DNA from: Cellulomonas gelida
Lineage (GTDB): Bacteria; Actinomycetota; Actinomycetes; Actinomycetales; Cellulomonadaceae
Direction: 5' to 3'
Assembly (NCBI RefSeq): GCF_006538725.1
Contig: NZ_BJLQ01000016.1
Span: 1-64,000 of the forward strand
DNA: 64,000 nt
Part shown: positions 21,049 to 26,086 of the stretch, piece after piece
How the letters are laid out: the number at the start of each line of letters is the position of its first letter
Numbering within the stretch: position 1 is the first letter of the stretch
The notes under the pieces: model-generated
Databases searched by the model: none
Seen by the model: only the letters and a program-made list of their open reading frames with translations
Told to the model about the DNA's origin: nothing
Position numbers and translations under genes: made by a program

Positions 21049-22650
21049 TCACGGCGGGACCGCCTCGACACGCGCGCCCCCGGCCGGCACTGCTCCTGGA
21101 GCGTTGTGCGCGCGACCGCCGCGCGTGCGGAACACATACCGCCGACCCTCGCCGCCGACTGGTGAGCCGAGCGTCGACAGCACCCCGGGCTCGGCCCGTT
21201 CGACGCGCTCGACGTCCAGGTCGAGGCGGTGCACCTCGTGATGGTGGAAGCCGCACAGCAGCAGGGCGTTGTCGAGGTCGGTCGCGCCGCCGTCGCGGTG
21301 CCACCACGCGATGTGGTGCAGCTGGCCGTACGCGGGCGGCACGCTGCAGCCGTTCCACGCGCACACCCGGTCCCGCGCGATCACGGCGTAGCGCTGCGCG
21401 GGCGTGAACGCTCGCCGCGTCCGACCCACGTCCAGCGGCAGCCCCGCAGCGCCCATCACCACCCGCGTCATGGCGCAGTCGCACAGCGCGGCAGCGAGCT
21501 CGGTCGCCGAGAGCGGTACCCCCGCGTCGGTCACCGCGGACGGGACGGTCGGCGGCATGAGGGGCACGCCCTCTGACCGCCGCCCCTGTGCTCGTGGACC
21601 GGCCGCGCGACGCTGCCCCTGCTGACTCCTCACGAGCGCCCATGTCTCGGCCGGAACCAGCAGCGAGACGTGCGACCCCGACCCGGCGCCGCCGACGCCG
21701 GGAGCGCCGACTCCACGAGGCCCCGCCGCCCCGTCGGCGTCGCCGCCCTCCACCGGCATGTCGTCCTCGCCGCAGCTCGCGGTCTGCCTGGCGTCGCCGC
21801 CGCTCGCCGCCGCGGCGTCACCGCCACCAACCCCGTGCCGGACTGACCCGCCGGCGAGCGCCGTGAGAGCGTCGGCGCGTGCCTGCTCAGGCGTCCGGTC
21901 CTCGTCGGGGCGGTGGCCGGTCGCGTCGAGCGCGCGCTGCAGGCGGGCGCCCGCGAGCGGGTCGAGCCGGCCGCGCAGGAACGTCCCCTCGGCCGCATGC
22001 GTCAGCGTGAGGAACCGGGCGCGGCGGTGCGCCTCCCGCTGGTCCGCGTGGTGCGCGGGGTGCTGCGCGGCCACCCAGGCGGCGAGCTCGCGCCCGAACT
22101 CACGGGAGTCGACGCCCTGCGCGAGGTCGACCACCGCGGCCTGCCCCTCGGCGGTGCTGAGCGCCTGCGCCACCTGCGCGGGCGCCTCCGCGAGTGTCCG
22201 GGCGAGCACGTCGGCGTGCCCCTCGCGCACACGACCCTCGGCCGTCGCGGTGCGCACGTCCGGCAGGCGGGTGAGCGCCTCGGCGGTGCGCACCTGCGTC
22301 GCGACCTGCCAGCGGGACGAGCCCGTCTGCCGCGCCCGGGTGTCGGCGAGCTCCCGCTCGGCGCCCGCAGCCGCTGCCGCCGCTTGGTGGGCCGCGAGCA
22401 CCGGCGCGCGCACCGCGGGGACGAGCGCCGCGAGCCGGTCGAGCGTCCCGAGCACAAGGGCACGCTGCGCACCGGTCCACCGATCGGCGTCAGCCGCGCG
22501 ACGCGCGAGCCCCATGAGGCGCTCGCGCAGGTCCTCCAGCTCCGCGAGCACGTCCTCGGCCCGCGGAGCGGCACTGCCGGCGCGCGCGCCGCCGGAGCGC
22601 GCGCCGCCCAGCACCGTGCTCACGCCACCCGGCCCCGAGGAATCGAACAT
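21049..22650 (-). CDS. DUF222 / HNH endonuclease-domain protein (13E12 repeat family)
   Basis: The 533 residues follow the common actinobacterial DUF222-HNH layout. A helical DUF222 domain occupies about 40-260 (ALVLGTLDRLAALVPAVRAPVLAAHQAAA, FLRGRLDPLAGARLQRALDA). A low-complexity Gly/Ala-rich part follows, then the HNH site near the end: RDRVCAWNGCSVPP, QLHHIAWWHRDGGATDLDNALLLCGFHHHEVH. The metal-binding Cys/His set and DNA-cleaving His are intact. Family members are often multi-copy and their role is unsettled (possible mobile or DNA-repair nucleases). The ATG follows a consensus TAGAAT by 7 bases. It converges with the dehydrogenase gene (23-base gap). Confidence 0.88.
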   Translation of the reverse strand: MFDSSGPGGVSTVLGGARSGGARAGSAAPRAEDVLAELEDLRERLMGLARRAADADRWTGAQRALVLGTLDRLAALVPAVRAPVLAAHQAAAAAAGAERELADTRARQTGSSRWQVATQVRTAEALTRLPDVRTATAEGRVREGHADVLARTLAEAPAQVAQALSTAEGQAAVVDLAQGVDSREFGRELAAWVAAQHPAHHADQREAHRRARFLTLTHAAEGTFLRGRLDPLAGARLQRALDATGHRPDEDRTPEQARADALTALAGGSVRHGVGGGDAAAASGGDARQTASCGEDDMPVEGGDADGAAGPRGVGAPGVGGAGSGSHVSLLVPAETWALVRSQQGQRRAAGPRAQGRRSEGVPLMPPTVPSAVTDAGVPLSATELAAALCDCAMTRVVMGAAGLPLDVGRTRRAFTPAQRYAVIARDRVCAWNGCSVPPAYGQLHHIAWWHRDGGATDLDNALLLCGFHHHEVHRLDLDVERVERAEPGVLSTLGSPVGGEGRRYVFRTRGGRAHNAPGAVPAGGARVEAVPP

Positions 22651-22770: not shown

Positions 22771-22910
22771 GTCACACGAGACGTCGTCGCCCCGCCCCGC
22801 GTGTCAGTCGCGCGACGACGTCGTCCCCCGCCCCGCGTGTCAGCCGCGCGACAGCGTCGTCCTCCCGCCCCCCCGTGTCAGTCGCGCGACAACGTCGTCG
22901 TCCCGCGCCC
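22771..22910. repeat. Tandem repeats derived from the 3' end of the PPOX-family gene
   Basis: Units of 36-38 bp start with GTGTCAG at 22801, 22837 and 22875, and a partial fourth unit lies at 22771-22800. The unit at 22875 includes the last codons and stop of the gene at 22878-23336. The others are diverged copies placed beyond the stop, as if the gene end had been duplicated by slippage. Confidence 0.8.
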
Positions 22911-23781: not shown

Positions 23782-24127
23782 GAGCGGCCACCGGTCCACC
23801 GGAGCAGACGCTCCACGAGAACGGCGCGCGGCCAGGGGCGTCCTCGCTGCGCCGACACGAGCGCCGACGCGTGACATGCGTCCCCGTCAGGGCGAGGATT
23901 GCCCCGGTACGTCACCCGCACGGCCGTCGCGGGCGGTCAACTCGACCCGTCCGGCGGACAGACCGGACATGCGCGCACGTGCCAGAGTGTCGCTGACACG
24001 TGGAACTTCCGCGTGCACACCGTCGTCGGGGCTGCCACGAACGCCGGGACGAGGACCTCAGACGCCCGGGCAGGGCGCAGAGACCGCGCCGGTCGGACGT
24101 CGCGCGCCCCAGGAAGGCCGGGACCGG
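23782..24127 (+). other. 346-base gene-free leader region of the PD-(D/E)XK/RAMA-like gene
   Basis: It contains the inverted repeat GTGTC-GCT-GACAC at 23987-23999. The 13-mer made of its first part (GTGTCGCTGAC) also occurs in the metY leader on the other strand (32643-32655). An open frame runs from 23987 into the next gene, so a longer N-terminus is possible, but it is low in conserved character. I see no other RNA or gene. Confidence 0.45.
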
Positions 24128-26086
24128 ATGCCCCTGTTCGAGCTCGACGACGGTCGCCCGCGCCTCGTCCAGCCGATGCAGCCGTTGCCCGGGTCGTTCG
24201 CGCAGGATCTCGCGTCGCTGCTCACGCACCACCTCGCGGCGATCGCGGGGGAGCCGCTGTTCCCGGTGCGTCACCGCTCGAGCGCGCCGGACCACGCGGA
24301 CCTGCCCGAGCTCCTCGCGCTGGACGCGACGGGCCGCGCGGTGGTCCTCGAGGCCGTGCAGGTGCTGGACGACGACGCGGTCGTCGCGGCGCTGCGGCAC
24401 GCGGGCGCGGCAGCGCGCATGACGGGCACCGACCTGGCGCGCTCGTACCACGCGGACCCCGACCGGTTCGCGGTGGACTTCGCGGCGTTCCGTGACCAGG
24501 TGGCGTACGGGATGGCGACGAGCCGGCGTGAGGGCGTACGCCTCGTCGTGATCTGCTCGGAGGTCGCGACCGAGGCGGGCGACACGTTGAGCTACCTGCG
24601 GGGCCCGGGCCGGCACGTGGACGTGCTGCAGCTCGGCGTGGTCCGCGGCGTCGACGACCGCCGGTTCCTCGACGTCTCGCCGCTCGCGCGGCACGAGAAC
24701 GTGCGGCGCCCGGTCGAGCCGACGGCGCTGCGGCTGGTCCGGTCGAGCGAGGCGTCGTTCGCGACGGCCATGGCGTACGAGGACGGCCGTCGCCGCCCGC
24801 CGGCACCGCTCGGCGGCGCCACACCGAGCCTCCCCGGACTCGGCACGAGCCACGGCGGCACAGGTCACGGCGGCACAAGGAACGGCGGTGCAGCGAACGG
24901 CGGCTCGTCGTACGGCTCGGGCCTGCCGTCCACCTCCGCCTTCCCCTCGGGCCCCAGCCAGCCGACGACCGCCCGGCCCCCGCAGCCGGGAGCGCACCGT
25001 CCGGTGGCTCAGACGACGAGCCGCACCCCGGGCCTGCCCACGACGAGCCGCGAGAACGCCGCCGTCCCGCCCCCGCCGCCGCAGCCCGCACGCCCGACGA
25101 CCCCCGCGCCCACGGCCGCGGTGCTGCCCGTCGCGGGCACCCCGAGCGCGCAGGTCTCCGCGTCCACGCGCGCGACCCCGGCCGTGATCCCGCAGTCGGG
25201 CCGCGCCGCCGGTGCGCCCGTCCCGCCGTCGTACGCGCCGCCGACGAACCGCACGACCTCGTCGTACGCGCCGCCCGTGAACCACGCCCCGGCGCACCCG
25301 CCCCTGACGAACCCGCACGTCACGGGCGCGACGCCGGGCCGTCCACCCGCGCCGTACGGCGCGCCGTACTCCGCCGCGCACGCGGCGCGTCCGCCCGCAC
25401 CCGTCCCGTCGCCGCCCGCGTCCCGCACGACGAGCACCGCCCCGATGCCCGCCGCGGCCGACCCGGACGGTGAGCGCGGCTACCCGGCGACCGCGTCGCC
25501 GCTGTACGAGTCGATGTCCTCCTTCCTGTCGGACCTCGCGCCCGCCCCCGCGCAGCTCGCCGAGCCGCTGAGCCACGTCCTGGGCACGTCGCACGAGCCG
25601 TTCGGCCACCCCGGACCCCGGCGGCCGGCGCCCGACGCGCAGGCGTACGACGACCGTGCACACGACGAGCGTGCGTACGACGAGCAGACCCCCGACGAGC
25701 GGCCACTCGACGAGCCCGTGTACGAGGACCCGGCGCCCGACCCCGACCCCCCTGCCACCCCCGCGCCCGTCGTGCAGCTCCCACCCCCGCCGCCCCGCCG
25801 ACCGGACATGCCGTACCCCGAGCTCGCGACACTCGCCAAGCAGCGCCGCGCGCTCGTGACGCTCGTGTGGTTCCGTGAGCGCCGCGGTCAGCGCCTCGTC
25901 GCGACGCTCGCGCCCGACGGGTCGATCGAGTTCGCCGACGGTGCCCGGTTCTTCGAGCCGAGCGAGGCCGCGACGTACGCCGCGGGCACGCCCGTCGAGG
26001 TCGACGGCTGGCGCGCGTGGCGCCTGGGCGACGGCGGGCCGACGCTCGCCGAGGCCACGGGACGCCACGACGAGGTGCGCGGCTGA
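24128..26086 (+). CDS. Unrecognised protein: degenerate PD-(D/E)XK-like head, disordered linker, RAMA-like tail
   Basis: 652 residues in three parts. Residues 1-215 look like a nuclease-related fold: HADLPELLALDATGRAVVLEAVQ (58-78) has the Asp, strand, turn, strand, Glu spacing of PD-(D/E)XK enzymes. The position of the catalytic Lys is Val77 (E75-A-V), so cleavage is doubtful. VRLVVICSEV and VDVLQLGVVRGVDDRRFLDVSPLAR follow. Residues 225-555 are Pro/Ala/Thr/Gly-rich and disordered. Residues 560-645 match the RAMA pattern (restriction enzyme and adenine methylase associated): LVATLAPDGSIEFADG, a PSEAATYA segment, then DGWRAWRL. ATG 24128 follows AGGAAGG at a long spacing. It is tail-to-tail with the hydrolase (3 bases). 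The fold assignments are by eye, moderate for RAMA and weaker for PD-(D/E)XK. No methylase or helicase is adjacent. Confidence 0.6.
   Translation: MPLFELDDGRPRLVQPMQPLPGSFAQDLASLLTHHLAAIAGEPLFPVRHRSSAPDHADLPELLALDATGRAVVLEAVQVLDDDAVVAALRHAGAAARMTGTDLARSYHADPDRFAVDFAAFRDQVAYGMATSRREGVRLVVICSEVATEAGDTLSYLRGPGRHVDVLQLGVVRGVDDRRFLDVSPLARHENVRRPVEPTALRLVRSSEASFATAMAYEDGRRRPPAPLGGATPSLPGLGTSHGGTGHGGTRNGGAANGGSSYGSGLPSTSAFPSGPSQPTTARPPQPGAHRPVAQTTSRTPGLPTTSRENAAVPPPPPQPARPTTPAPTAAVLPVAGTPSAQVSASTRATPAVIPQSGRAAGAPVPPSYAPPTNRTTSSYAPPVNHAPAHPPLTNPHVTGATPGRPPAPYGAPYSAAHAARPPAPVPSPPASRTTSTAPMPAAADPDGERGYPATASPLYESMSSFLSDLAPAPAQLAEPLSHVLGTSHEPFGHPGPRRPAPDAQAYDDRAHDERAYDEQTPDERPLDEPVYEDPAPDPDPPATPAPVVQLPPPPPRRPDMPYPELATLAKQRRALVTLVWFRERRGQRLVATLAPDGSIEFADGARFFEPSEAATYAAGTPVEVDGWRAWRLGDGGPTLAEATGRHDEVRG

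Follow-up and report, generated by a model that had tools for sequence, protein, structure and literature searches.

Locus and gene layout

The window, a 64,000-nt stretch of contig NZ_BJLQ01000016.1 of Cellulomonas gelida, contains a gene whose reading frame is open across 652 aa on the + strand. Its product combines a NucS-like nuclease head, apparently dead, with a long Pro/Ala-rich linker and a RAMA tail (Table 1). The order of domains, a PD-(D/E)XK-like head followed by a RAMA-like tail, had been read from the letters in the original prediction and is confirmed by Pfam and by fold searches with AlphaFold models; its description as an unusual design is likewise justified, the architecture being uncommon. 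In a literature search conducted largely outside subscription journals, no protein joining a NucS-like domain to RAMA was noticed.

A putative ribosome-binding sequence, AGGAAGG, lies 10 nt 5′ of the ATG at 24128 and is found at most 25 nt from the start in 13 of the 18 Cellulomonas rows examined. An alternative in-frame start at 23876, giving a longer protein, is unsupported and was dismissed because the orthologues share the shorter N-terminus and begin at the same point, mostly with MPIFELD or MPLFELD. Inspection of 18 upstream regions of 220 nt each for an SOS or RecA-NDp/PafBC promoter gave no match. A GTGGGACAGT-like upstream element, spotted by eye, is not claimed because just 6 of 18 rows have it exactly, the window gene not among them.

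Table 1. Features of the gene and of its translation start in the window
Feature	Position	Strand	Basis
Whole gene, 652 aa: apparently dead NucS-like head, linker and RAMA tail	24128..26086	+	Reading frame, Pfam, alignment
Putative ribosome-binding sequence AGGAAGG	24111..24117	+	13/18 rows
Head, residues 1–190: predicted NucS/EndoMS-type PD-(D/E)XK fold	24128..24697	+	AlphaFold model, fold search, profile alignment with intact relatives
Former catalytic strands, residues 58–78: E61 (was Asp), E75, V77 (was Lys)	24299..24361	+	Model and alignment
Pro/Ala-rich linker, residues 222–560, purifying selection undetected	24791..25807	+	Composition, dN/dS
RAMA tail, residues 564–645	25817..26062	+	Pfam, AlphaFold model, fold search
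E610-P611-S612, site of the MPND Ser-x-Ser	25955..25963	+	Alignment, PMC9963953
W628, site of MPND Trp135	26009..26011	+	Invariant in 30/30 aligned tails

A NucS-like head without its catalytic Lys

The AlphaFold model of residues 1–221 is of fair to good quality (pLDDT 81), and its best five matches in the PDB are all NucS/EndoMS structures (top E 8.4e-4, probability 1.00), with low TM-scores (0.30–0.36) and E ≤ 0.001 for one match only. Against Pfam, the head gives no match and the whole protein no NucS_C match up to E 1; the protein matches nothing in the PDB by sequence, and profiles built from the head and tail alignments recover neither NucS nor MPND among PDB sequences. As these sequence searches are negative, the assignment of the head rests on the fold search and on a chain through intact relatives that retain the catalytic motif. 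The degenerate-head profile aligns with two of these, L128 and L130, across 180 columns (probability 99.7), and L130 in turn gives a weak alignment with NucS of P. abyssi (E 0.96), in which the two catalytic motifs coincide. The head is also matched by the PADLOC profile PDC-S11 (21.6 bits, residues 56–195), as are 18 of 35 heads at E 0.01. The possibility that the gene is simply the genus's own NucS is rejected, a separate NucS_C protein being present in 30/30 Cellulomonas genomes.

The PD-(D/E)XK character of the head had been deduced from the spacing of residues 58–78; the five best fold matches agree, and the model predicts strands at 61–65 and 71–80 that hold the positions named at the time. 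In the alignment, E75 and V77 occupy the Glu and Lys positions of the E-x-K motif of intact relatives. Replacement of the Lys by Val77, noted then for a single protein, proves to be a property of the family. The catalytic residues were tabulated in 94 distinct rows (78 loci of named hosts, 23 other loci, the window gene and L030), with seven loci of <200 aa read from the match omitted and identical proteins counted once; separation of four Lys-bearing rows (L128, L130, L136 and L030, a paralogue in genome G008) leaves 90 degenerate heads. The catalytic Lys is kept in none of them and the Asp of the PD position in 7, being replaced in the other 83. Glu or Asp is retained at the E position in 75 and D66 is conserved in all 90. 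Given the retained acid at position 75 and D66, the head may still bind metal.

PD-(D/E)XK enzymes can relocate catalytic residues. This precedent, together with the retained acids, speaks for a nuclease that is active, or conditionally active, via a rearranged catalytic site. In no head column, however, does Lys reach half of the rows, and the heads contain 0.43 Lys on average, so that a moved Lys is unlikely; the sole column with Arg or Lys in at least 85% of the rows is R138. A nuclease with a migrated Lys is rejected for want of any Lys column, and since the catalytic Lys is replaced throughout and the PD Asp nearly so, continued cutting by a rebuilt site is very improbable. Judged from its residues, the protein appears no longer to cut DNA.

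Linker, RAMA tail and DNA-contact residues

Some 330 disordered residues had been expected between the two domains. The linker itself stands, residues 222–560 being rich in Pro and Ala; its disorder is deduced from composition, 66% of the residues being Pro, Ala, Ser, Thr, Gly or Gln. The two intact relatives measured have linkers of 24 and 20 aa, against a median length of 186.5 aa (range 47–549) for 80 degenerate proteins.

The Pfam RAMA profile (PF18755) matches residues 580–642 of the window tail at 39.2 bits, above the cut-off of 35.2, and is matched by 30/30 tails at E 0.01. The match spans positions 37–96 of the 107 in the profile, the N-terminal third being unmatched, versus 5–105 in L128 and 5–104 in L130. 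The AlphaFold model of the tail (pLDDT 86) finds the RAMA domain of MPND as its best three PDB matches (best E 6e-4, probability 1.00, TM 0.59–0.66), in line with the RAMA-like tail originally proposed. Across the family, L135, L129, L026 and L029 score under the RAMA cut-off and L124, L125 and L126 have no Pfam RAMA match. In L087 (Cellulomonas massiliensis), the orthologue's frame, from 6001, stops without a readable RAMA tail.

According to the available text of PMC9963953, Ser113, Ser115 and Trp135 of MPND touch the DNA backbone, mutation of each nearly abolishes binding, and the RAMA domain of CcrM contacts the backbone as well. Alignment of L130 with MPND (E 0.002) places the S-P-S and Trp of MPND on the S-P-S and the DGW Trp of L130. 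The Ser pair could be read in 84 of the 90 degenerate rows (L048, L087, L124 and L127 have no tail motif, and L125 and L126 no locatable site). It is kept in none of the 84, and Asp or Glu occupies the first site in 71. S-x-S is present in all three intact relatives, and Ser/Thr-x-Ser in eight of nine unrelated RAMA proteins, a control made up of the tail-only matches having loci and read by eye. Loss of the Ser pair, with an acid at the first site, speaks against DNA binding in the manner of MPND, and on the evidence of these residues the degenerate tail is not a standard reader.

The protein could nevertheless have remained a DNA reader that marks or shields chromosomal sites, its RAMA tail recognizing modified or unmodified DNA and its dead head contributing affinity. 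The RAMA fold, the invariant Trp, the backbone contacts of MPND and CcrM and an Arg-rich tail hairpin (R583, R585, R586 and R589, in at least 90% of 14 rows) favor this reading. It is opposed by the absence of the Ser pair from every degenerate tail and its persistence in intact and unrelated RAMA proteins, and by seven of the 30 Cellulomonas genomes, the window's included, which all carry the gene and have no match to PF02384 or PF01555, two large adenine-methylase families. A DNA reader is consequently judged unlikely. The same data bear on two earlier statements. That no methylase lies nearby holds for the whole assembly of the window as far as these two families are concerned. That the head is tethered to a modified-DNA-type reader is unsupported as stated, and the seven genomes weaken it, as does the finding that 6mA left MPND binding unchanged, although an earlier study cited in the same available text found 6mA selectivity (PMC9963953).

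A second branch of the family, with Actinomyces, Georgenia and others, differs at its C-terminus. At least six Arg and Lys among the last 20 residues are found in 15 of its 27 proteins, on a background of 1.9 per 20 residues in this branch, and in none of the 61 proteins of the window's branch or the three intact relatives. L124 (no Pfam match) and L127 (no tail motif) appear to have lost RAMA and have kept the Arg/Lys-rich end. The combination suggests that nearness to nucleic acid is what is retained, by changing means.

Intact relatives and related nucleases

Three nuclease–RAMA proteins, L128 (303 aa), L130 (319 aa) and L190:8663–9562 (299 aa), keep the PD...E-x-K motif and have full-length RAMA matches (64.9, 77.1 and 51.9 bits, respectively). 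Directly preceding L128 is a type ISP restriction–modification (R-M) gene of 1604 aa (Type_ISP_C, 331 bits), its stop 1 nt from the L128 start. Such a pair, a type ISP R-M gene with an intact NucS-like nuclease–RAMA gene starting 1 nt later (L139:1520–7244, genome G062), is possibly a two-gene restriction cassette. No clear R-M gene is seen at L130 and L190, where both loci are short or disturbed; by eye, the disturbed region L190:7900–10400 (G430) contains apparent pieces of ABC-transporter and CinA-like genes. None of the eight neighbors of the window gene occurs in the loci of intact relatives.

The intact relatives match two PADLOC candidates, PDC-S11 with the head and PDC-S14 with the RAMA part. 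Within the genus itself, L030:3706–10052 (G008) lines up an MmeI-like methylase piece below cut-off, a 1118-aa ResIII helicase, an Eco57I-type methylase and an intact DUF91/NucS-like nuclease (PDC-S11, 495 bits), a row that is likely an R-M or defense island.

Distribution and neighborhood

The head is found in 29/30 Cellulomonas genomes; the single miss is a 920-contig assembly, and 28/28 good genomes are positive. In the order, 28 of 149 genomes match and 25 of these hold a degenerate member, the other matches being intact relatives (G062, G151) and a DUF91-like protein (G071). Second matches of G020 and G079 (L137 and L138) read as unrelated proteins. In the class, 7 of 296 genomes match, with intact relatives in G062 and G430 and DUF91-like proteins in G622 and G634; the match in G467 reads as an unrelated protein. 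Of the 296 class genomes searched, four matching ones lie outside the order, and no degenerate member is present in any of these. Hosts include Cellulomonas, Actinotalea, Isoptericola, Flavimobilis, Georgenia, Bowdeniella and Actinomyces. Viral, plasmid and phage collections, searched with a single sequence, yielded no relative.

Neighbors were counted in those 57 of the 78 loci of named hosts that offer >4 kb on each side and a gene of >200 aa. They include a convergent alpha/beta hydrolase (53 of 57), a Zn alcohol dehydrogenase (46), an FAD oxidase and metX (45 each), and a thiamine-binding protein and a maleylpyruvate isomerase-like gene (40 each), and the matching gene run recurs in members from other families of the order. 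As these neighbors have no evident functional link to DNA, the location says more about vertical descent than about function. The survey of homologue surroundings proposed with the original prediction thus returns housekeeping genes, not methylases or defense genes, an R-M neighbor being seen only at the intact L128. An operon with the thiamine-binding gene is rejected: the two genes share a strand in the window and lie on opposite strands in L021 and L022. Elsewhere in the window, a DUF222 protein with a weak HNH match (21049–22650, − strand) is present in 2 of the 57 full loci, pointing to recent insertion or to loss elsewhere. Three tandem 36-nt repeats (22790–22899; 89–100% identity, spaced 36 and 38, spacer-free) adjoin a PNPOx-like gene.

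This distribution bears on a disguised defense protein, acting either as sensor or adaptor within a restriction or abortive system or as a decoy against phage counter-defense. Such a role is compatible with the PDC-S11 matches of half of the heads, with the PDC-S11 and PDC-S14 matches of intact relatives and with the type ISP gene next to one of them. The near-universal presence in the genus, the stable housekeeping locus and the lack of relatives in the viral, plasmid and phage collections argue in the other direction, and a defense role is regarded as distinctly unlikely.

Phylogeny and selection

A tree built from 59 thinned heads separates the 50 degenerate rows from six DUF91-like nucleases and the three intact RAMA proteins. 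The dividing branch has support 100/99 and is recovered in 100% of bootstrap trees. Rooting was at the midpoint, and the tree has two long end branches; a root on the nuclease side implies one loss of catalysis.

Over 190 pairs from 20 Cellulomonas genes, the head has the lowest median dN/dS (0.25), followed by the tail (0.38) and the linker (1.00). These values are rough, given diverged synonymous sites and a poor linker alignment, but the contrast is large. Head and tail are under purifying selection and none is detected for the linker. A decaying, functionless remnant would be in keeping with the vanished catalytic residues, the linker free of detected constraint, the missing RAMA at the end of L087 and the lack of a RAMA match in L124. 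The low dN/dS of both domains, the open frames of the orthologues read and the presence of the gene in every good genome contradict it, and of all readings considered this is the least credible.

Origin and possible role

Architecture, motif loss, single origin, purifying selection, stable neighborhood and vertical descent are each supported by computation. Collectively, they lead us to favor, with modest confidence, a restriction-type enzyme that lost catalysis once and has been kept as a non-catalytic, perhaps DNA-proximal, scaffold; the gene has probably acquired a new function that involves no cutting. The ancestor would have been a compact two-domain restriction-type protein, with a NucS-like PD-(D/E)XK nuclease joined to RAMA. 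Within the order, it would have lost the catalytic Lys, plus the Asp in most lineages, and the gene would have settled in a housekeeping locus and then been inherited vertically. In the resulting scaffold, the head would bind a partner, which could be a protein or else DNA at an end or a branch, and a flexible linker would separate it from the tail. The tail would hold the protein close to nucleic acid, one branch of the family using an altered RAMA and the other often an Arg-rich end. Both the scaffold role and the nearness to DNA are what we infer from these features.

It is tempting to propose a fuller account, put forward more tentatively and plausible rather than probable. A two-domain restriction enzyme would have been domesticated once, losing the catalytic site and the canonical DNA contacts of RAMA, and would now serve Cellulomonas and related bacteria as a near-universal chromosomal scaffold; in the sister branch, an Arg-rich end would have partly replaced the original nucleic-acid anchor. 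The absence of this end from the window's own branch counts against the scaffold explanation. If it is right, the family allows one to follow how a restriction-type enzyme became a conserved, non-enzymatic component of the cell, by direct comparison of the intact relatives, the single loss and the purely vertical descendant. The Cellulomonas hosts of the gene are harmless and easy to grow. The scaffold explanation would further mean that a RAMA fold by itself is no proof of a modified-base reader, as which it is widely read from sequence (e.g. in the available part of PMC12839542).

Comparison with known systems

The predicted fold of the head is shared with NucS/EndoMS (PF01939; PDB 2vld, 5gkj, 5gke), from which the window protein differs by its replaced Lys and PD Asp, the lack of a NucS_C match and the presence of a RAMA tail. 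The tail shares its fold and Trp with the RAMA domains of MPND (PDB 7ydt, 7ydw) and CcrM (named in the available text of PMC9963953), but the sites of Ser113 and Ser115 are never both Ser/Thr in the 84 degenerate tails.

Closest in layout are L128, L130 and L190:8663–9562, which have the same domain order and N-terminal start; they differ in their intact motif, compact size (299–319 aa) and short linker. The PDC-S11 phage-defense candidates of PADLOC (e.g. L030:8955–10052, 495 bits) have a head related to that of the window protein, yet their E-x-K is intact, they give no RAMA match and they adjoin methylase and helicase genes. Fusions of RAMA to a nuclease fold are also known from RAMA-Mrr-NTPase and GIY-YIG-RAMA endonucleases, described in the available text of PMC11037411 as possible type IV enzymes; these use other nuclease types, whereas the window head is NucS-like and catalytically degenerate. 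Type IV, modification-dependent restriction is associated with an intact nuclease site and with a patchy distribution and a defense context. The window protein appears to lack such a site, and its gene is found in nearly all Cellulomonas genomes (29/30), among housekeeping neighbors.

A precedent for the proposed head is RecC, whose inactivated PD-(D/E)xK domain lost catalysis and took another role (PMC1185551, available text); RecC belongs to RecBCD and is without RAMA, and the likeness is drawn from its published description. More generally, in PD-(D/E)XK pseudoenzymes the fold is kept and the motif lost across a clade under selection. The same combination is found in the window family, which, with loss of activity read from its residues, would be a pseudoenzyme of this superfamily.
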